A stretch of 39,355 nucleotides of DNA from Dysgonamonadaceae bacterium. Lineage in GTDB: Bacteria; Bacteroidota; Bacteroidia; Bacteroidales; Azobacteroidaceae. Below are positions 26,001 to 39,355 of this stretch, piece after piece. Positions within the stretch are counted from its first letter, which is position 1. Each line of letters opens with the position of its first letter. Location: positions 1 through 39,355 of the forward strand of contig JAIRKO010000050.1 of the NCBI GenBank assembly GCA_031260045.1, read 5' to 3'. Below the pieces are notes generated by a model, which did no database searches, had not been told where the DNA came from, and was given only the letters and a program-made list of their open reading frames with translations. The position numbers were made by a program, and so were the translations under genes.

Positions 26001-29000
26001 ATGAAAAAGATTTATTTGAGTTTATTAGTGTTTTTTATCAGCGCATCGGTTTTTGCCGCCGGCTGGTTTCAGGATTTTTCATCGGGAAGACCGAGTATTT
26101 ACACTTCGGAAAATGAAAATACGGCGCCTGATGATGAATGGTATATTACGGGAATAAGCGGTTTATTTTCCAATAGTGGATGGAAAGTTCAGTGGAGTTA
26201 CGACCAAGGCTTAAAGCCTGCTGGTTCGTTTATTTTTTTGGATGGAGTAAGTAGTGTTGGTGACCTCACCGAATTTTCGTTGGTAAGTCCGGCATTTACG
26301 CCTACGGATGCCACCGATTTATATTATAGAATTCAGGAAATCAAAGTTTCCGATTACCCCGACGCAGGCGCCGAAGAACTTTATCTGGAAATTGCCAGAA
26401 AAATAGATAATATCTGGACATGGACAAACACAACCAATGTACTTGCCGATTTGGTCGGGCATAATGTTTCGACAACAGCGGCGACTGTTTTACATGCGAA
26501 TTTAAGCGATTATGCCGATCAGCCAATTAAAATCCGTTTTCGGGGAACAATAGCTACAGGAAATTTTGTCGCAGTGATTTACAGCGTAGCATTAGTTAAT
26601 AATACGGTTACGGATTTAGCGGTGAGCGCATCCCCAAATATTATCTCTCAAATTCCGAAACACCACGCCGGACAGGCTTTAAATGCTTCGAACGTTTCCG
26701 TACAAAACCAAGGAGGGCAAGCCGTTGCGACCGGTGCGGCAACCGTAACAGCAAGCGTTGCCGGTAGCGACATTGCAACAGCAAGCGTTTCGGCTTTGCA
26801 GCCATTGGAGTTATCCTCAACGTTGACTTTCACTCCGGCTTTTGCACCGCAATCTTTTGGAGAGTATCAATTTCAATACGCCTTAACGAATGACGATAAT
26901 AATGCCAACAATACGGCAACGTCGAATACATTCGTGGTTACGCCCAATACATTTGCTTCAGACGCCGGTACGGTGGAGAGTACTACCTCTAATCAGTACG
27001 GTGATATAGGAAAAAAATTCACATTAACGGAGAGCGAGAGGATAGAATCCATTTCGTTAGGGTGGGGAAAACTTTCCACCGATCCGGTCAGTTCGGATTT
27101 TCAATGGGTGATCTATCAATTGAATGCAGACGGCAGTTTGGCAAGTACAACGCCGGTTCATACTTCGTCCGGTACGCTTACCCGTCCAAACAATGCAACC
27201 ACGCCTCCCAACGACCGTGTAGCTACTTTTGAAACCTATCCGGTTGGACAGAACTTGGAAGCAGGAAGTTATATTTTTGGCGTCAAGAAATCGGCAAACG
27301 TGGGGCTTGGATCATCTGTAGATGATCACAGCGTTTATTATTCTATTGACGAGGGCGTATTGACGCCTAATTACGGTCAAAATTTGCTAATTCGCGTCAA
27401 CACGGCTTCCGACATCACGCTTTCCCCGCCTGTCGCTACCAGGGCGGTAGGCATTAACGATACGATTTTTATCGGAGGGTCTGCCGTAACGGGGCTTGCT
27501 GCTTCTCCCGAAATCGCAATCGTCAAAAAAGACGGTAGTGCGCAGGTAGCGGGTATTTTCGCTTCTTATGCCGCCAATAAAGTAACGGTTGCTCACAACA
27601 CTTTTGAATATAATACGGAATATACGGTAACGATTCCGGCAAATACCCTTACGGGATATCCAGCGGCGCTGAGTTGGTCGTTTACCACCGTAGCCCCGCT
27701 TGAGGCAAAAATATTCTCTCCGGCTAATAATGCGGAGAATATAGTTCCGGATGCACCGATTACCGTAACTTTCGATCGGGATATTCCGGCAGGAAGTTCG
27801 TTTTCGGGCATTACCATTGCAACAGACGAAGCGACGCCTGTTTCCGTAGCCGATGTATCCGCTACGTTTGAAGGCAGCGTGTTAACCATCGCTCATGCTC
27901 CTTTTGCAATAGGCAAGAAATACAAAGTAACTATTCCAGCTACGGCTAACAATGAATTGACGGAGGCGGTTTCTTGGGTATTTACAACCGTACAGCCTTT
28001 TGGTCTTGCGTCTACCAATCCTTATTTTCCGGCAGATGGGGATACCGAAATTGATTTGCCTCTCAACAATATTAGAGTAATTTTCAACCAACCGGTGAAT
28101 ACGGCGAGCACGCTGAACGGAATTACGATAAATGGCGTTCCCGTTCCCGTAGCGTCAACAACGATTGGCATAGGAAATCAGAATAATCGGGTAACTATTA
28201 ATACTTCCAACATTATATTTGAACCCAACACGATTTATACGGTAGTTATCCCTGCCGGCGCTATTTCGGGATATGATGAGGTAATTACCTGGTCGTTTTC
28301 TAAGCTGGAAATAGCAGTCGTAGGTACCCTGCCTAACGACAGTGCCAAAGATGTATCCTTAGATACGGAAATATCGGTGGAATTTAATAAATCCGTCTTT
28401 AAAAACGGTTTCCCGCCTATTCCCACTATTACAGCAGAAGGCGCTCCGATAGCCGGCGTTAGCTATGAGGTAGATACCGTAAATAATCATAAAGTGATTA
28501 TTTCGCATACCGAAGCATTGGCGCCGGAAACGGAATACACCGTAACTCTTCCCGCCGAAGCCGTTGGGGCTTGGGGCGAAGATATTGTATGGAAATTCAC
28601 CACAGGCGCAGGCGCATCCGAGCTTCAAATTGTCGGCTTTACGCCTGTGGATAGCGCGGAAAATGTGGCTGTGCTTCACACCGTTGAAATAACTTTCAAC
28701 AATCCGATTACGCTCGGCAATACCGACGCCATCAGGATTAACGATGATGCGCCGACTTCGGTAACCGTCCAAAACGATACCCGATTGAGACTGAACCATG
28801 CCGCTTTCGCTCCGAATACGGAATATACGGTAACCATTCCCGCCGGTTCGGTGGTCGGATACGACAGCGATACGAGTTGGACATTCACGACGGTACCCGC
28901 ACTCGTTTATACGACCTCGCCCGCCAATGATGCAATCGACGTCGCTTTGGACGCTCCTTTGCAAATTGGATTTAACAGAGAGCCTTTGCGTCCGCGACTT

Positions 29001-29468
29001 GGTTCGCCTAATATTACTGTTACAGGGGATAATGGCGAAACCATAACGGTTTCCGGCAATACATGGAACGCATCGGGCGACACCCTGACGATTGCCCATG
29101 CACCTTTTGATCCCGGCGTGAATTATACGGTAACTGTTGTTGCTACGTCTATCGTCGACCTGAACGACTGGAGTAGCGAGCAATCGGATATTGTTTGGTC
29201 GTTCACTACGGCGTCGCAAGGCGCCGGAATTCAAACCGTTAAAGATGTAAACGGGGTTTATCCTACATTTTCGCACGGCGAGATAACGGTGATTTCCAAT
29301 CCGGGTTCGCGGATTAAAATCGTGGATATAACCGGTGCGGTTCAGGCTACTTATCGCTCGGCGGACAAGCAATCCGTTATCCGTTTGGATGCTGCACCCG
29401 GCGTTTATTTTGTGGTGATTGAAACCGGTAAATCGGCGGCTGCCTACAAGATTGTTCTGCAAAAATAA
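26001..29468 (+). CDS. T9SS-secreted protein with about six SbsA-type Ig-like (Big_5) repeats
   Basis: A 1155-residue surface protein with signal peptide MKKIYLSLLVFFISASVFAA. Residues about 21-200 form a jelly-roll-like module (WFQDFSSGRPSIYTSEN), and about 200-315 a CARDB-like module (VTDLAVSASPNIISQIPKHH). Residues about 320-465 form a further beta module. Six Ig-like repeats of roughly 95 residues then run from about 470 to 1070. Each has an xTVTIPAxxxxxY pattern and ends in WxFTT, as in NTEYTVTIPAGSVVGYDSDT. The last 75 residues are a T9SS sorting tail (SNPGSRIKIVDITGAVQATY, APGVYFVVIETG). Such chains act as extended stalks for adhesion or for holding other domains; there is no catalytic domain. 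The repeats differ enough in sequence to be old. A long hairpin follows the gene. Confidence 0.85.
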   Translation: MKKIYLSLLVFFISASVFAAGWFQDFSSGRPSIYTSENENTAPDDEWYITGISGLFSNSGWKVQWSYDQGLKPAGSFIFLDGVSSVGDLTEFSLVSPAFTPTDATDLYYRIQEIKVSDYPDAGAEELYLEIARKIDNIWTWTNTTNVLADLVGHNVSTTAATVLHANLSDYADQPIKIRFRGTIATGNFVAVIYSVALVNNTVTDLAVSASPNIISQIPKHHAGQALNASNVSVQNQGGQAVATGAATVTASVAGSDIATASVSALQPLELSSTLTFTPAFAPQSFGEYQFQYALTNDDNNANNTATSNTFVVTPNTFASDAGTVESTTSNQYGDIGKKFTLTESERIESISLGWGKLSTDPVSSDFQWVIYQLNADGSLASTTPVHTSSGTLTRPNNATTPPNDRVATFETYPVGQNLEAGSYIFGVKKSANVGLGSSVDDHSVYYSIDEGVLTPNYGQNLLIRVNTASDITLSPPVATRAVGINDTIFIGGSAVTGLAASPEIAIVKKDGSAQVAGIFASYAANKVTVAHNTFEYNTEYTVTIPANTLTGYPAALSWSFTTVAPLEAKIFSPANNAENIVPDAPITVTFDRDIPAGSSFSGITIATDEATPVSVADVSATFEGSVLTIAHAPFAIGKKYKVTIPATANNELTEAVSWVFTTVQPFGLASTNPYFPADGDTEIDLPLNNIRVIFNQPVNTASTLNGITINGVPVPVASTTIGIGNQNNRVTINTSNIIFEPNTIYTVVIPAGAISGYDEVITWSFSKLEIAVVGTLPNDSAKDVSLDTEISVEFNKSVFKNGFPPIPTITAEGAPIAGVSYEVDTVNNHKVIISHTEALAPETEYTVTLPAEAVGAWGEDIVWKFTTGAGASELQIVGFTPVDSAENVAVLHTVEITFNNPITLGNTDAIRINDDAPTSVTVQNDTRLRLNHAAFAPNTEYTVTIPAGSVVGYDSDTSWTFTTVPALVYTTSPANDAIDVALDAPLQIGFNREPLRPRLGSPNITVTGDNGETITVSGNTWNASGDTLTIAHAPFDPGVNYTVTVVATSIVDLNDWSSEQSDIVWSFTTASQGAGIQTVKDVNGVYPTFSHGEITVISNPGSRIKIVDITGAVQATYRSADKQSVIRLDAAPGVYFVVIETGKSAAAYKIVLQK

Positions 29469-32817: not shown

Positions 32818-33290
32818 TTGTTTGATTTATACGCCAAGCCGCAAATAACCCCCGTCATTAGATATGCCTGTTGTAAGCCTTTCGCTCTCTGTCGGTCATC
32901 AATCCAAATCTTCCTTGTGGCGCAAAGGAAACTTTGTATTAGAGTGAACTTTTGCTCGCCTCTGTAACCACGGAAAGAACAAATATCCGTTTTCTTATCT
33001 ACCACGATCTGAACCTTTATCGTATGTCGTTTTTTTACCCGAATAGTACTTTCTTTGACCTTTTGCAGGTCGTTCGATGGGTATTTCGGTACTATCCCAC
33101 AAGTACTACTTCAACTTCGGTTTCGGGGTCTATCAACGCTTTTTTGCCAGACAACCTGAATAACCCGCAACGAATCAGCACTGTTTCAACCCTCTGTATC
33201 GTTCTGCAAACGTTAGATCATTGGTGATTCCGTAACTTACGCCAATACAATCAAATGTGCGCATTCCTTATAATACTCCAACATCATGAG
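32808..33290 (-). pseudogene. Decayed IS5-like (DDE_Tnp_4) transposase
   Basis: Translating the minus strand in alternating frames gives consecutive pieces of an IS5-group transposase: IGVSYGIT, then SNVCRTIQRVETVLIRCG, LSGKKALIDPETEVEVVLV, DSTEIPIERPAKGQRKYYSG, and RHTIKVQIVVDKKTDICSFR. The last frame runs to a stop at 32808. The DSTE aspartate is the first catalytic residue. Frameshifts lie at the C run 33096-33098, the T run 33030-33036, and at least two more between about 33205 and 33270, so errors of sequencing alone are unlikely. About the first 100 residues and the IS ends are missing. It joins directly to the capsid gene near 33295. Non-functional. Confidence 0.75.
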
Positions 33291-33590
33291 AAGCAAACTT
33301 TCTGACTTGTACATCTTCATACCGAGTTTCGGAAGTCTACCTCCCGTTGAACGGATAGAATCACGTTTTTTTATCGGTAATGGAGAGTCTAACGCGACAA
33401 CATCAGCGGCGACAATCGACTTACTTACGATTGTTGAATCCCATTTATTGTCATACGACAATACGGGCGTTAACATCCCCTTAAACAGGTATGTAACAGG
33501 CGTTTTGCTGTCATTAACCTTTTCAGTAATTCCTGCTGCAATGGATTTAAACCATTTCTTTACAAATTCTACAAATAATGATGCATTCAT
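33237..33590 (-). pseudogene. Phage major capsid protein, truncated and fused to IS remnant
   Basis: The 117-codon frame begins MNASLFVEFVKKWFKSIAAG and continues with PIKKRDSIRSTGGRLPKLGM, which look like the N-terminal region of the major capsid proteins of Bacteroidetes tailed phages, normally some 330-400 residues long. From about residue 99 (position 33296) the sequence changes to LLMMLEYYKE, which belongs to the IS5-like transposase, and the frame stops at 33237. The chain therefore lacks most of the capsid fold and cannot assemble. Start and orientation agree with the decoration-like gene 13 nt upstream. The capsid call is by position and by recall of the family; moderately sure. Confidence 0.6.
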
Positions 33591-33603
33591 TTTTTACCTC
33601 CTT

Positions 33604-33990
33604 TTAATCTTGAGTGAAACGAATAAGCGGAAGAGCCACTTTGATTTCTTCCGTAATAGGGTACGGACTTACAACCTCATTAACGCTTCCGCGCACCATA
33701 ATACCTACCATCGCTTCGTCGGTTGTTACTGATGCAACAACGACCCCAACAATAGTATGATCACTTGGAAGCGAGTCATACGCTTCCCCATTCACCGGCA
33801 TAGGTTTGTAATTGTCCTTTGCCGTCTCCTTAATAACTACATGCCCGGCTCTAATTGCCTTGAGAGGAAATCCGGTTACGTCCAAAGAGCGTCCGCCGGG
33901 AATACCTTCGATGTAGTTAGTTATCGTAACACTGTCCAATCCGGCATCGAAGCCGGGAATATCAGCGTTATTTAAACTTGTAACTGCCAT
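33604..33990 (-). CDS. Probable phage head decoration-type protein
   Basis: A 128-residue beta-rich protein without signal or membrane segments (MAVTSLNNADIPGFDAGLDS, later VGIMVRGSVNEVVSPYPITE). I do not recognise a named family. Its place between a scaffold-like gene and the capsid start, its size and its beta character are those of head decoration or stabilisation proteins in tailed phages. It is 11 nt after the scaffold gene and 13 nt before the capsid start, so the three form one unit on the minus strand. Apparently intact, though with the capsid broken it has no clear use. Confidence 0.5.
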   Translation of the reverse strand: MAVTSLNNADIPGFDAGLDSVTITNYIEGIPGGRSLDVTGFPLKAIRAGHVVIKETAKDNYKPMPVNGEAYDSLPSDHTIVGVVVASVTTDEAMVGIMVRGSVNEVVSPYPITEEIKVALPLIRFTQD

Positions 33991-34001
33991 TTTTTTTTAT
34001 T

Positions 34002-34655
34002 TTAAATTAAACTGCTAACCACTTCTGTGGTCTCTTCTTTCGACGGCTCTTTTTTAGTAAAGCTGCCGCCTTTTGTTGGAACGCCCAAAGCCGCCCCTTT
34101 GGCTGCAAAATCGGCAACCAAACCGCCAACTTCCGTCGTCGTTTCGGTAACAAATTCATCGAATTCATCTTCCGTCATATCTTTTAACGATATACGACTG
34201 TACGGTTTCTTTAAGTTGTCCGGCAGACTGCTGATAACAGCATCAAGTTTCTGCTTCCGGGTTGTTTCGACTTTTTCGCCCTCCAGAGCCGTAAGTTTTT
34301 CGCTCAAAACTTTGTTTGATTCGATAATAACTTTAGCCCATGCCGGAGTTTCGGTTTTGTCGTCCGGTTCCTTATTGGGTTCGGTTTTTGTAGGCTCCGT
34401 CCCCGGTTCAGCCTTTTGCCCGTCTTTTAATCCGTGCTTTTTTTCATAGTTGCTTACAGCCGTTTGCGTGGCTTCTGTTGCCCTGCGGTCGGCTTCGGCA
34501 TCTATGACTTGTTGAAAGGTAACCCCGTCTACTGCCGGTTGTACCCCTTCTTCCGTTGTAACAGTTTTCGCTAACTTATTAGCTATCCTGCTTAATACCT
34601 TTTCGTCAACCCCCTCAAATCGGGTTTTGAGCGCGTCTAAAATTTTCTGTATCAT
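34002..34655 (-). CDS. Probable phage scaffolding protein
   Basis: A 217-residue hydrophilic, charged, mostly helical protein. It opens MIQKILDALKTRFEGVDEKV, has a Lys/Glu/Thr/Pro-rich linker at about 95-120 (EPGTEPTKTEPNKEPDDKTE), a coiled-coil part at about 125-150 (VLSEKLTALEGEKVETTRKQ), and a C-terminal basic end with a GG turn. This composition and the gene order (scaffold, decoration, capsid) are usual for procapsid scaffold proteins, which guide shell assembly and then leave. No sequence motif proves it. The start at 34655 lies about 25 nt from a -7 box. Confidence 0.55.
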   Translation of the reverse strand: MIQKILDALKTRFEGVDEKVLSRIANKLAKTVTTEEGVQPAVDGVTFQQVIDAEADRRATEATQTAVSNYEKKHGLKDGQKAEPGTEPTKTEPNKEPDDKTETPAWAKVIIESNKVLSEKLTALEGEKVETTRKQKLDAVISSLPDNLKKPYSRISLKDMTEDEFDEFVTETTTEVGGLVADFAAKGAALGVPTKGGSFTKKEPSKEETTEVVSSLI

Positions 34656-34759: not shown

Positions 34760-36136
34760 ATGAAAACACTTGAAGAAATACTGGCTTTATCACCCGACGA
34801 GGCGGTTAAGGAGTTAAAACAAAAATCAGTCGTACTGCCGGAATGGGAAGACTTGAAAAAAGAATATGACCCGAAAGAGCATTCCGTAATGACGGATACT
34901 TCTTATTTGGATGTCGCTACGGATGAAGGGACTATAGAAAAAGTAACCCGTATATCCATCGGATTACAGCGGCTTGCCGCCAAACGAACGACGGAACTCT
35001 GTTTCGGAATACCGGTAAAACGCATCTATAACGCGCAAACCGACGGCGAAAAAGAGGTTGCGAAAGCCATTGAAGCGATACTGAAACGCAACCGCATCGA
35101 AACGGTTAATATTGAGCGCGGCAATATGCTTTTTTCAAGTTGTGAAGTTGCAACTATATGGTTCGCTACGGAAGAGCCGAATACACTGTACGGTTTCGAT
35201 AGCCGGTTGAAATTGCGTTGCCGGAACTATTCCCCAATGAATGGTGATGATATTTATCCGCTATACGATGCGGAAACGGATGATATGATTGCCCTGTCGT
35301 TCGGTTATACACGCAAGAACGGGGACAAAGACATTGAATATCTCGACGTTTACACCGCCGATAAACATATCCGTTACGTGAAGAATAGCGGATGGGTTGA
35401 AGAAATCTCGGAAATATCCTCAATCGGAAAAATACCGGCGGTCTACTGCTTTCGTCAAACTCCGGCATGGGAAGATACCTCAAATATTGTTACCGAAATC
35501 GAATGGGCGCTATCCCGCAACGGTAATTACCTGCGCAGGAATAGCCGCCCGATGCTCGCTGTATTTGCCAACGAGGAAATCGCTACGGAACAATCGCCGG
35601 AAACAAGCAATCAGGCAAAAGATGTGGTGCAATTTCCGGCGGGCGGGGATGCAAAATATATCGTCTGGCAGCAAGCCATTGAGAACTTGAAATACTATGT
35701 CGGCGAGCTGCGGCAGTCGTTCTTCACTCAATTGCAATTACCGGATTGGAGCTATGAAAATATGAAATTAACGCCCATGTCCGGCGAAGCCCGCAAAATG
35801 ATGTTTATCGACGCGCAATTGAAAGTAAAAGACGAATCCGGACGGTTGATTGAAATGCTCGACAGGGAAATAAACGTTATCAAAGCGTTTTTGAAAATAA
35901 TGATGCCGGGTAGAATAAATGACATTGACAGATTGCTGGTTGAAACGGAAATAACGCCTTTCGCCGTTAACGATGACAAGGAAATTATTTCCAACATCAT
36001 GACTGCGACTGCTGGGAAAGCAATCTTGTCGCAACGGGAAGGTATTGCAAATCTGGGATGGTCTAATAATATAGAGGAAACATTGCGGCAAATCCAAGAA
36101 GAAGGCAGTTTTGATGCGCTTGAACCAACAATTTGA
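34760..36136 (+). CDS. Phage portal protein (SPP1 gp6-like)
   Basis: A 458-residue protein with the character of SPP1-type portal proteins: an N-terminal helical part, a central beta-rich wing (GFDSRLKLRCRNYSPMNGDD, YPLYDAETDDMIALSFGYTR), the segment RNGNYLRRNSRPMLAVFANE, and a long C-terminal helix region with LTPMSGEARKMMFIDAQLKV and MLDREINVIKAFLKIMM. Portals form the dodecameric ring at one capsid vertex through which DNA is packaged and to which the tail joins. The start follows a very A-rich leader. The next gene starts 3 nt after its stop. Apparently intact. Confidence 0.82.
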   Translation: MKTLEEILALSPDEAVKELKQKSVVLPEWEDLKKEYDPKEHSVMTDTSYLDVATDEGTIEKVTRISIGLQRLAAKRTTELCFGIPVKRIYNAQTDGEKEVAKAIEAILKRNRIETVNIERGNMLFSSCEVATIWFATEEPNTLYGFDSRLKLRCRNYSPMNGDDIYPLYDAETDDMIALSFGYTRKNGDKDIEYLDVYTADKHIRYVKNSGWVEEISEISSIGKIPAVYCFRQTPAWEDTSNIVTEIEWALSRNGNYLRRNSRPMLAVFANEEIATEQSPETSNQAKDVVQFPAGGDAKYIVWQQAIENLKYYVGELRQSFFTQLQLPDWSYENMKLTPMSGEARKMMFIDAQLKVKDESGRLIEMLDREINVIKAFLKIMMPGRINDIDRLLVETEITPFAVNDDKEIISNIMTATAGKAILSQREGIANLGWSNNIEETLRQIQEEGSFDALEPTI

Positions 36137-36139
36137 TTT

Positions 36140-36430
36140 ATGTTAAAAAACATTCTACTCTTAATTATTGCGCCCTTTGTGCTTGTCCGGCATAAAATTA
36201 TGATTAGTCGCAAGAACGACGCAATCAAAAAGGCGGAAATCCTCTCAAAACAATACGGTAAAAACGTGCATGTGTTTCAAATCGGCAGGCGGTTTCAAAT
36301 CGGCACGCGCGAAGAACTGCGGCGGTTAAATAAAGTTGGTCGTAAAAACCTGATACGGCTAAGTAAATCCCACCTGCTTGATTTCGATTATAGGAATAGT
36401 TTAGTTTATATTGCTCGGCATGACAGATAA
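36140..36430 (+). CDS. Small basic protein in phage head operon
   Basis: A 96-residue very basic protein. The first roughly 18 residues are hydrophobic (MLKNILLLIIAPFVLVRHKI) and could be a membrane anchor. The rest contains KKAEILSKQYGKNVHVFQIG and the duplicated phrase GRRFQIGTREELRRLNKVGR. I do not recognise a family. It fits tightly between portal (3 nt) and the MuF gene (5 nt), so it belongs to the same transcript and is probably a phage gene of unknown function. Confidence 0.6.
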   Translation: MLKNILLLIIAPFVLVRHKIMISRKNDAIKKAEILSKQYGKNVHVFQIGRRFQIGTREELRRLNKVGRKNLIRLSKSHLLDFDYRNSLVYIARHDR

Positions 36431-36435
36431 TCACA

Positions 36436-38091
36436 ATGTCAAAAAATACGGACAAATACAATAAACAACATCTGCGCAATCTCGGATTGACCGAAAAGCA
36501 GATTACAGCTATCTACGATTCAGCAGTAAGGGAAGCCACCGCAATCGGCGCATCCATTCACGATTTTAACCCCCAAAAACCGTTTTCCTTTGCCGACTAT
36601 CCGCAAACCAAGGCAAGGATTGATAAAGCGATTAAAGAACTCCAAACAAATGTAGAAACGATTATTGTTAATAGTGTTCGCTCCGAATGGACGCTGGCGA
36701 ATAACAAGAACAATGCGCTTTGCGATTGGGTATTCGGTAACAATAAACGCAATCTCTCAAAGGCGCAGGAACGCAAGTACTATAACAATAACGACAAGGC
36801 TCTGGATGCCTTTCTGAAACGCAAAACAGCCGGATTAAACCTATCTAACCGGGTATGGAATTATACAAATCAATTCAAGTCTGAAATAGAAATGGGAATT
36901 GATATAGGACTGCGCGACGGGCTTCCTGCATCCGATATAGCCCGCGACTTGAAACAATACCTAAACCAACCGGATACGCTCTTCCGTCGCGTCCGGGACG
37001 AACACGGGCAATTACATCTATCGAAAGTGGCAAAAGCCTACAATCCCGGTGCGGGCGTTTATCGGTCAAGTTATAAGAACGCCATGCGCCTTGCTCGCAC
37101 CGAAAATAATATCGCCTACCGAACCTCTGATTATGAACGTTGGCAGCAACTTGATTTTGTTGTCGGGATTGAAGTGCGCCTGTCCAATAATCATCCGTTC
37201 GCCGATATTTGCAACGACTTGGCGGGGAAATATCCTAAAACATTCAATTTTACAGGCTGGCATCCGCAATGCCGCTGTTATGCGATTTCAATTTTGAAAA
37301 CAGAAAAAGAAATGGAAGCCGACAACAAGCGGATAATGAACGGTGAAGAACCGGCGGCGGATAGTGTGAACTCTGTAAAGGATATACCGGATAACTTCAA
37401 AAAGTGGGTGACTGATAATGAAATTCGTATAATAAAAGCAAACGAAAAAGGGTCTTTGCCTTATTTCCTGAAAGATAACCGGAGCGCGTGGAAGAACCTT
37501 ACATCTGTACAATACATCAACGTTCAGAAAATAAAAGAAACACGACATTTCGCTGCCGAATTTGACAATTCATCAAAAACGATTGCAAAGAATTTAGGCG
37601 TTACCGTTACCGATGTGAACCTGAAATCAGATAAACGTATTTTTGAAAAAGCAATAGTGGATTATCACGGGGATGTATTCCGAGTAAACGATATTATCCG
37701 GAACACGTTCATTGTCCCGGCAAATAAGATACCGGCACTTATATCCGAAATTGAAAAGCAGTTCAATGTGCTGGAATACAATCCTCAATCTACATCTATG
37801 GGCTACACGGGCAATTTGTTTAAGATTTGGGTTCGGGATGGAGTTAAGGGAGAAATACATGTCAATACGCCACAAATGATTTATGCAAAAGAAAAGAATG
37901 CCGAACAATTACTTGGCTCAAAGCTGTTTAATGAAATAAAAACAAAGTCGGGGCTTCCGCATGGGTTGGGGCATGGGTATTATGAGGAAGACAGAGTTTT
38001 GTCAGTGGCGGAAAGACAAGCAGAAAAAGGGAAAGGATTGGTCGAAAAATCAAAGGCTTATTATGAGAAAATAAGAGCGGTCAAATTGTAG
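36436..38091 (+). CDS. MuF-type phage head protein with C-terminal RelA/SpoT-like domain
   Basis: A 551-residue protein. Residues about 140-288 are the Phage_Mu_F / SPP1 gp7 head morphogenesis domain, with RLARTENNIAYRTSDYERW near 218-236 and the Cys/His end FTGWHPQCRCYAI near 272-283. A linker of a kind seen in MuF proteins follows (IPDNFKKWVTDNEIRI, LPYFLKDNRSAW, 317-352). Residues about 390-505 resemble RelA/SpoT nucleotidyltransferases: LKSDKRIFEKAIVDYHGD, NDIIRNTFIV (candidate metal ligand D419 and R422), the turn MGYTGNLFKIWV (Y457 where the guanine-stacking Tyr lies) and GEIHVNTPQ (E473 as the second acid). MuF domains carry variable C-terminal toxins in other phages. A nucleotide-pyrophosphokinase activity is inference; the histidine of the GYxSxH motif is missing. 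Confidence 0.75.
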   Translation: MSKNTDKYNKQHLRNLGLTEKQITAIYDSAVREATAIGASIHDFNPQKPFSFADYPQTKARIDKAIKELQTNVETIIVNSVRSEWTLANNKNNALCDWVFGNNKRNLSKAQERKYYNNNDKALDAFLKRKTAGLNLSNRVWNYTNQFKSEIEMGIDIGLRDGLPASDIARDLKQYLNQPDTLFRRVRDEHGQLHLSKVAKAYNPGAGVYRSSYKNAMRLARTENNIAYRTSDYERWQQLDFVVGIEVRLSNNHPFADICNDLAGKYPKTFNFTGWHPQCRCYAISILKTEKEMEADNKRIMNGEEPAADSVNSVKDIPDNFKKWVTDNEIRIIKANEKGSLPYFLKDNRSAWKNLTSVQYINVQKIKETRHFAAEFDNSSKTIAKNLGVTVTDVNLKSDKRIFEKAIVDYHGDVFRVNDIIRNTFIVPANKIPALISEIEKQFNVLEYNPQSTSMGYTGNLFKIWVRDGVKGEIHVNTPQMIYAKEKNAEQLLGSKLFNEIKTKSGLPHGLGHGYYEEDRVLSVAERQAEKGKGLVEKSKAYYEKIRAVKL

Positions 38092-38094
38092 CAA

Positions 38095-38370
38095 TCATAA
38101 TGCTTGTTTGTGGAGTTTACAACTCGAACTAACCGATTTTTTATATCTCCACGTTACACCGAATGTGTCATAATCTTCTTTGGTTATTTCATAGGGTAAA
38201 CTCATATAGTCAGGATTGCCTAGACGCATGTCTCCATCTTTACTTATCCGGTATTCAGGCTTCAAATAGTAATGTCCTGGACTGTCTGATGTCCATAATT
38301 TAGCAAAACATTCTCCGTTTTCATCTTCGCGGATTACGGCATCCTCTTCGTAATGTGCAAAATACTTCAT
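38095..38370 (-). CDS. Small acidic protein, candidate immunity or antitoxin partner
   Basis: I prefer the start at 38370 (MKYFAHYEEDAVIREDENGE), preceded by an AT-rich leader, over the in-frame ATG at 38415. The product is 91 residues, acidic in the first two thirds and basic at the end, with aromatic-rich LWTSDSPGHYYLKPEYR and SLPYEITKEDYDTFGVTW. No family is recognised and there is no signal peptide. Its stop is 3 nt from the stop of the MuF-RelA/SpoT gene, in convergent orientation. Position next to a putative toxin, small size and acidity are what one would expect of an immunity protein, but orientation opposite to the toxin is unusual. Real gene likely; role speculative. Confidence 0.5.
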   Translation of the reverse strand: MKYFAHYEEDAVIREDENGECFAKLWTSDSPGHYYLKPEYRISKDGDMRLGNPDYMSLPYEITKEDYDTFGVTWRYKKSVSSSCKLHKQAL

Positions 38371-38477
38371 ATTCAAAATATTAAAAGATAACGCCACGTG
38401 CCACTCGCATCCCACCGCCTTGTTTCATGCGCCATCAATAAATTGAAAGCCTTGTCCGCTGTGGCGTATCCTTTGTG

Positions 38478-38485
38478 CAAAATTA
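38478..38485 (-). promoter_or_regulatory. Possible -7 box of the small acidic gene
   Basis: TAATTTTG on the minus strand, about 108 nt before the start at 38370 (63 nt before 38415). No -33 element. Confidence 0.3.
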
Positions 38486-38523
38486 CAAATTATTCATTTA
38501 TAGTCCTAATTATTCCACGTTGT

Positions 38524-38850
38524 TTAATAAACCGGTTTCACAATATCAATCCGCAAGCCGAGAGCTTCTATTATTCGGTAGAACGTTCCCACGCCGGGTT
38601 CAATAACGCCTTTTTCGATTTTTGAGATATAGGCTTTATCTCTCCCTATGCGGTTGGCGAGTTCCGCCTGTGTTATCTTTTCGCTCTTGCGGGCATCAAA
38701 TATAACCTGTCCCATACAATATGCGTATGCTTCCCTGCGGAACTGTTCGCGTTCCGGTGTTCCCACCTTGCCATATTTGCTGTCAAGCACATCATCATAA
38801 TCTTCGATTTGGTGATTATTTACATGTTCCTTTGTCTGCATAATATTCAT
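38524..38850 (-). CDS. XRE-family antitoxin of a RelE/HigB-type system
   Basis: A 108-residue protein (105 if the ATG at 38841 is used). The N-terminal part is polar and binds, in relatives, the toxin. Residues about 55-100 are a classical XRE helix-turn-helix: ITQAELANRIGRDKAYISKI, then EKGVIEPGVGTFYRIIEALG. It follows the toxin gene with an overlap of 26-35 nt, the toxin-first order of HigBA-like loci. It should neutralise the toxin by direct binding and repress the shared promoter at 39159. It lies at the phage remnant's edge and may be phage cargo. Family firm. Confidence 0.88.
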   Translation of the reverse strand: MNIMQTKEHVNNHQIEDYDDVLDSKYGKVGTPEREQFRREAYAYCMGQVIFDARKSEKITQAELANRIGRDKAYISKIEKGVIEPGVGTFYRIIEALGLRIDIVKPVY

Positions 38851-39154
38851 TTTTTATTGTTAATGCCTTTTCTATTTCACCCTTTGGCGTTTGTTGGGTT
38901 TTCTTTTGGAAACCGTTGAACAAAACAACTATCTGTCCTCCGTCGAAAATAAAAAACACACGGTAGATATTACCGTTATACTCCGTTCTTAGTTCATAAA
39001 CGCCGTCGCGGATATGTTTGACAAACTTCACGGGTATTCTATCCTGCATTTTCAGCAAATCAAGTCCGTAATTGATTTTATGCTGTTCTTTTTCGGTGAG
39101 CGTTTCCATGAACGCCTCGAAATACCCGCCGTATGTTTTTATTTTCCTTTCCAT
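38816..39154 (-). CDS. RelE/ParE-superfamily toxin (phage Gp49-like, HigB type)
   Basis: A 112-residue basic protein of the Gp49-like HigB group. GVYELRTEYNGNIYRVFFIF near 50-70 is the core strand pair with the family's ELR and YRVFF motifs, and VLFNGFQKKTQQTPKGEIEK near 77-96 is the conserved F-x-KK-x-x-x-TP segment. Toxins of this group cut mRNA on the ribosome. The gene overlaps the downstream antitoxin. Its predicted -7 box ends only about 5 nt before the start codon, so either the message is leaderless or another promoter is used. Confidence 0.88.
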   Translation of the reverse strand: MERKIKTYGGYFEAFMETLTEKEQHKINYGLDLLKMQDRIPVKFVKHIRDGVYELRTEYNGNIYRVFFIFDGGQIVVLFNGFQKKTQQTPKGEIEKALTIKNEYYADKGTCK

Positions 39155-39211: not shown

Positions 39212-39355
39212 TTAAAGTGAATATTTGATACTTATGATTTTTTTCGATTGTTCTACCATTGCGGCTGTATCAATCCCTAACATCTGATAAAACCTTTCGC
39301 GCCCAACAAGCGATTCATATGCTATTTCAATCACTCTTTTTTCTTCTCTGGTAAA
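39212..39355 (-). CDS. 3' end of an unidentified gene
   Basis: An open frame enters from the right edge of the window and ends in TAA at 39212-39214, giving the last 47 residues of a protein (FTREEKRVIEIAYESLVGRE, later YQMLGIDTAAMVEQSKKIIS). It is hydrophilic and helical. I recognise no family. Same strand as the toxin-antitoxin pair, 57 nt upstream of the toxin start. Confidence 0.5.
   Translation of the reverse strand, partial: FTREEKRVIEIAYESLVGRERFYQMLGIDTAAMVEQSKKIISIKYSL

Follow-up and report, generated by a model that had tools for sequence, protein, structure and literature searches.

What kind of protein is encoded by a long prophage gene near the end of a contig from a Dysgonamonadaceae bacterium, and how would a cell that carries this gene stay unharmed? 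The window analysed here is the whole of this contig (C8, JAIRKO010000050.1, 39,355 nucleotides), which belongs to a draft genome of 1.99 Mb that is 81.6% complete. The gene (36436..38091, plus strand) encodes a MuF head protein of 551 amino acids with a C-terminal domain of the Tas1/Apk (p)ppApp-synthetase type. A preliminary description had seen in it a MuF protein fused to a RelA/SpoT-like domain and, possibly, a phage-borne polymorphic toxin. This interpretation is supported overall, with the corrections given below: the product is with high probability a MuF polymorphic toxin of the Apk2 family, encoded by a prophage in a Bacteroidota-type host, and its cassette is a variant with a convergent immunity gene, a structured RNA and no hydrolase found.

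A 2017 paper (PMC5576092) already reported RelA-like domains in MuF toxins, and MuF carriers also appear in PMC12691689. The Apk2 family, in which MuF is joined to an adenosine 3'-pyrophosphokinase, is described in PMC12226406 with 89 homologues, including some from Bacteroidota. The same source reports (p)ppApp synthesis by the Apk2 proteins of B. caccae, S. pneumoniae and M. haemolytica and places iapK and aph1 after the toxin gene. Bacteroidales MuF proteins of the Bxa type with Apk2-like tails, followed by a small open reading frame (ORF) and Aph1, are mentioned in PMC11699363. Since the family is already published, the toxin of the window is a new member of it.

The MuF carrier and its C-terminal domain

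The PHROG search gave strong phage-family matches over residues 6-351, namely to phrog_35295 (E 1.4e-145, without assigned function) and to the head-morphogenesis families phrog_7625 (E 1.6e-86) and phrog_1657 (E 6.3e-33). The general models stayed under their cut-offs (Pfam Phage_Mu_F, 13.4 bits against 29.6; TIGR01641 of NCBIfam, 22.8 against 39.65), and judged by these matches the MuF domain is real but divergent. Residues 199-373 match phrog_16625, which is named for the Bxa ADP-ribosyltransferase; thus the N-terminus is of the same kind as in Bxa and the Bacteroidales MuF polymorphic toxins, whereas the tail of Bxa is an ADP-ribosyltransferase.

An alignment of eight N-terminal parts was used to search the viral collection, where at least 583 stretches encode an N-terminus of the same kind and 80 loci were retained. 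Among the 79 new loci classified, 69 have tails of at least 60 amino acids, which fall into 13 clusters (made by BLAST at E 1e-6, so that remote links between clusters are possible), and 10 have shorter tails. One of the 13, with five loci, is Apk-like; a search for other MuF proteins with the same tail had been proposed in the preliminary description. The part that all these clusters have in common corresponds to residues 1-341 (36436..37458, plus strand). Thirteen tail clusters on one N-terminus represent the pattern of polymorphic toxins, and this diversity is a strong argument against a structural extension shared by all related MuF proteins. An enzymatically inactive tail that simply extends the head protein would fit the C-terminal position and the variable length of MuF proteins; nevertheless, six of the ten short-tailed proteins end within their locus with tails of less than 40 amino acids, the catalytic residues are invariant and a Tis1-type immunity gene is present. 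Given the tail diversity this explanation is very unlikely, to the point of being hardly credible. A second short match to MuF residues 315-355 (48% identity, in a frame of 216 amino acids) was seen in the same genome at C14, 1116-1235, minus strand, and could perhaps be another MuF-linked tail.

The toxin domain covers residues 370-551 (37543..38088, plus strand), and its conserved positions include D419, R422, Y457 and E473. All the motifs named beforehand are present: LKSDKRIFEK with K397 and K405, D419 and R422 in DIIRNT, G456-Y457, and E473 in EIHVNT. The synthetase fold and motifs of the proposed RelA/SpoT-like domain were thus retained, and its limits (390-505) had to be corrected, since it starts near residue 371 and ends almost at the C terminus. 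The motifs are not a product of chance, since residues 374-547 match Tas1 (E 1.1e-25), with 35% identity over 175 residues. In agreement with this, the predicted structure of residues 370-551, the check suggested in the preliminary description, presents an alarmone synthetase fold. Tas1 is the closest relative by sequence and fold, and RSH and CapRel are clearly more distant; for CapRel, a toxSAS that pyrophosphorylates tRNA, the similarity of the modelled fold is lower than for Tas1. The expected match to PF04607 was not obtained: the Pfam scan (E <= 1) assigned no RelA/SpoT family to the protein, and one homologue, P0024, carries PF04607. Apart from this, the protein differs from RelA/SpoT, the small alarmone synthetases and toxSAS in lacking SxH in syn3, in being part of a head protein and in being paired with a Tis1-type immunity protein.

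K397, K405, D419, R422, Y457, G459, E473 and N477 are identical in 29/29 aligned proteins, including that of the window, and L461 is kept in 27/29. The only departure from the synthetase motifs (K-rich helix, D/R of syn2, Y of syn3, E of syn4) is H475, which replaces Q beside the syn4 glutamate and is unique to this protein among the 29. The assignment to Apk2 rests on features of the protein: the N-terminal MuF head-morphogenesis domain, the C-terminal fold of a Tas1-type adenosine pyrophosphokinase, these motifs, and an adjacent gene of the IapK/Tis1 type, here on the opposite strand. As in Apk2 of B. caccae, S. pneumoniae, M. haemolytica and P. multocida, a MuF N-terminus and a Tas1-type C-terminus are combined in a prophage head module, and a small immunity gene adjoins the toxin gene. 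Tas1/Tis1 (Apk1) of Pseudomonas aeruginosa type VI secretion presents the same toxin fold and immunity family, with the difference that its carrier is described as a type VI PAAR protein (PMC12226406) and not a MuF phage head protein.

The syn3 motif of the window protein, G-N-L, is neither the SxH of RSH nor the GxN of the characterised S. pneumoniae Apk2, the latter being compared through its published description. Together with the singular H475, and with copies of the neighbouring structured RNA in tRNA arrays of other phages (see below), this could indicate that the fold is right and the acceptor differs, so that (p)ppGpp would be made or an RNA such as the CCA end of tRNA would be pyrophosphorylated, as by CapRel, PhRel and FaRel2. 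Such a change of acceptor is decidedly improbable, given that Tas1 is nearest in sequence and fold and that an immunity gene of the Tis1/IapK family is present, and because the conservation of G459 and L461 indicates that the syn3 motif is the group's own.

Regarding the distribution of the toxin domain, it was found in only one of 39 genomes, that of the window, and is absent from the 38 others. The first scans of viral and genome contigs with a single sequence gave no match, and tblastn of the phage collection with the Apk domain of the window gave one record, none from Streptomyces. In another pair of loci (L130, 5001-6809; L131, 5001-6830) the Apk tails are near-identical, and in one of them the stretch with the catalytic D-x-x-R is missing without a frameshift; L130 also gave no match to the RNA element described below.

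The immunity gene and the adjoining RNA element

The putative immunity gene of the Tis1/IapK family (38095..38370, minus strand, 91 amino acids) is convergent with the toxin gene, and their stop codons are 3 bases apart. This arrangement, on the other strand, is unlike that of the characterised Apk2 cassettes. A subgroup profile of the immunity protein, used alone, gave no Tis1 match, and Foldseek with its model gave none at E <= 0.001. Another apparent difference from those cassettes is the hydrolase: the 1264 bases that separate the toxin gene from the contig end yielded no Aph1 or HD hydrolase, everything to the right of base 39355 being missing since the window is the entire contig. In the draft genome the HD_4 matches were confined to two frames, of 763 and 746 amino acids, the size of long RSH enzymes, and no stand-alone gene was seen.

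The third difference is a conserved and structured RNA element (38396..38463, minus strand) that lies upstream of the immunity gene; its closing stem reaches approximately 38385-38470. When the immunity regions of seven loci were aligned, this stretch was more conserved than the immunity protein itself, and a chance match to its 28-base core is not to be expected, as none was seen in 100 shuffles. The flanks of 17 distinct copies, a few of them close kin, form a closing helix whose sequence is different in most; its mean score is 17.4, against 10.1 for flanks taken from different loci, and 0 of 20,000 permutations reach the observed score. In fixed register 73.9% of the cells of this helix are paired, since some copies pair with a shift. 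A structure of 17 pairs was set by hand on an alignment of 16 copies, with 86.9% of the cells paired, 15 of the 17 pairs changing on both sides and a covariation of 0.619, compared with 0.208 (sd 0.027) in shuffled alignments and 0.11-0.16 when slid.

Some observations weaken this case. The structure was drawn from the same sequences, which favours its scores, and one of five measures is weak (35 further pair types against 30.4 in shuffled alignments, reached in 28 of 500 shuffles). Moreover, single-sequence folding gave no unusual stability (z from -0.6 to -2.1 in all six sequences), so that the case rests on covariation, whose overall effect is large despite the weak fifth measure. No known Rfam RNA was matched: none of the 4227 models of Rfam 15 gave a gathering match in the window, nor any match at E <= 5 for 38000-38700. 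The element is very likely a real, structured class of RNA without an Rfam match. No RNA in Apk2/IapK cassettes turned up in those parts of the literature that were covered; PMC8040213, a survey of structured RNAs of human microbiomes, may contain the motif. Theta ribozymes (PMC10879173), an idea prompted by the tRNA arrays, were compared through Rfam.

Distribution of the RNA element

Judged by eye, the element lies before the immunity ORF in the window and at L043, L004, L006, L007, L049, L057/L058, L081 and L131, with an HNH gene between the two in L004, and after it at L009, L011, L052, L056, L156 and L157. A fixed 5' leader of iapK is hence not general, its position relative to the immunity ORF varying among loci. 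The L049 copy comes from Prevotellamassilia timonensis. Further copies are present at L151, L153 and L163, and all copies listed adjoin Apk2/IapK cassettes except that of L153. The viral collection was scanned three times with patterns derived from copies linked to Apk, and nine contigs were retrieved, seven of them with an Apk domain beside the element; the contig of L151 ends in an ORF that looks IapK-type by eye, and in that of L153 the element is near terminase genes with neither an Apk domain nor an IapK-type ORF. The related phage contigs L151 (10253-10626) and L154 (5915-6257) look identical through the element and then carry different immunity-like ORFs, which places the element at a swap boundary.

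Two wider associations were tried and rejected. A general Bacteroidales repeat was ruled out, as the element is present in 2/295 genomes of the same order, one of these copies being weak (E 6.9e-5), and in 1/395 genomes of the phylum, with the window's own counted in both. A link to MuF proteins in general was also ruled out, with 2/77 MuF loci positive, both with Apk-like tails. No element was found in the plasmids scanned.

Apk domains were grouped at 70% identity into 43 clusters, each taken as positive if any member was positive. The element is present in 14 of them, an HD hydrolase-like gene in 12, neither in 17 and both in none; absence means little for the several clusters that are truncated shortly behind the toxin (477 bases in L007/L171, 136 or less in L223) or lie inside giant proteins. 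The positive clusters include negative members (L130 and L194 for the element, L038 and L039 for the hydrolase), and the L163 cluster came to light once the motif had already been defined. Both features occupy a similar place, starting 72-321 bases after the toxin stop in 13/14 element clusters and 11/12 hydrolase clusters, the exceptions being the phage of L004 (762) and L013 (1700). The hypergeometric probability of the two never occurring together is 0.0034 with kinship ignored, and an earlier count (element 13, hydrolase 10, both 0 of 27) gave p 0.00012. On a tree of 29 rows, from which remnants and near copies had been removed, each draw of a kinship-aware test held 1-3 informative independent pairs, all in the same direction (sign test, median p 0.5), too few for the test to decide.

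Outside the cassettes, 82 Streptomyces phage records matched the L157 copy and 48 the window's copy. In the three regions inspected, the element is unannotated in gaps of tRNA or tRNA/tmRNA arrays (L232, 5001-5066; L233, 4984-5037; L234, 3001-3059), and the model confirms it there. In phage Karimac the gene after the element encodes a VWA-domain protein.

The state of the prophage and the proposed role of the cassette

The first recognisable phage genes appear at approximately 33.2 kb. Two genes upstream of the toxin gene there is a portal gene (34760..36136, plus strand; PF05133, SPP1 gp6-like, SPP1_portal match E 4e-32), separated from it by an ORF of 96 amino acids without family match (36140..36430, plus strand). 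Beside the portal gene, three genes are on the minus strand (33237-34655). The first (33237..33590) is a truncated major capsid gene that matches only residues 1-101 of a relative of 364 amino acids; no other copy was seen in the draft genome. The second (33604..33990) encodes a small phage protein (phrog_38330, with a weak match to phrog_909, major head protein). The third (34002..34655) encodes a protein of phrog_5824, a family without assigned function in PHROGs. In related records phrog_5824 was matched in 6/8, five times downstream on the strand of the toxin and once, in L008, on the opposite strand and around 20 kb upstream. A terminase query gave no match in the draft genome, in a search without positive control. 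The prophage thus looks rearranged or defective, and rearrangement, decay or misassembly could be the cause, as breakpoints in a draft genome may be assembly errors.

The truncated capsid gene and the unusual order of the head genes, with H475, may indicate that the cassette is a decaying one in a prophage remnant, no longer delivered, perhaps inactive, and retained for immunity only. There are orphan cassettes of this kind in bacterial genomes, where toxin-domain remnants stand beside an immunity-like ORF and the RNA element (L052, 6124-6351; L056, 6013-6288; L057, 762-953; L058, 5980-6171). Nevertheless, the toxin ORF is full length without internal stop, its catalytic residues are intact and the breakpoints may be artefacts, which leaves decay as a real but minor possibility.

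Left of 29.5 kb, most of the ten long ORFs scanned look chromosomal, including ribonucleotide reductase, PRPP synthetase, peptidyl-prolyl isomerases, glycosyltransferases and a Por secretion tail protein, and the genes at 1-32768 are mostly chromosomal. The region 26001-29468 encodes a large protein that combines Big_5 domains with a Por secretion tail; this tail and the named relatives suggest a Bacteroidota-type host. Beyond the immunity gene, a helix-turn-helix antitoxin-like gene (38524-38850, minus strand) and a RelE/HigB-like toxin-like gene (38816-39154, minus strand; Gp49, PF05973, E 3.9e-22) were observed.

If the window protein is an active Apk2 toxin, as its relatives suggest for toxicity, product and capsid delivery, it would be built into the capsid and enter the next cell with the DNA. 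There, its C-terminal domain would move the pyrophosphate of one ATP onto the 3' hydroxyl of another ATP or of ADP, and this synthesis of (p)ppApp would drain the adenine nucleotides of the target cell. The lysogen would be protected because IapK, as proposed, plugs the acceptor-nucleotide site. Being convergent and having its own upstream region, iapK could be expressed in a silent lysogen, while the toxin would be transcribed with the late head genes. The RNA probably either influences how the immunity gene is expressed or is a phage RNA in its own right. A bolder proposal sees in it a class of phage-borne structured RNA not described before, which would take the place of the Aph1 hydrolase in Apk2 cassettes as their second layer of self-protection, for example by sensing or sequestering (p)ppApp or a precursor, or by controlling iapK when adenine nucleotides fall; its protective role is the bold part, and as a whole this proposal is doubtful.

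The toxin family was described recently and the RNA seems to be new. The toxin is a further member of a family by which temperate phages may deliver ATP-draining enzymes, and the layout of its cassette, with a convergent immunity gene and no hydrolase found, suggests a way in which a lysogen could remain immune at times when its toxin gene is not expressed. The structured RNA, a new lead, occurs both in the toxin cassettes of Bacteroidota phages and in tRNA arrays of phages of Streptomyces; as no cluster combined it with the HD hydrolase, it leads to a testable prediction about RNA in toxin self-protection.
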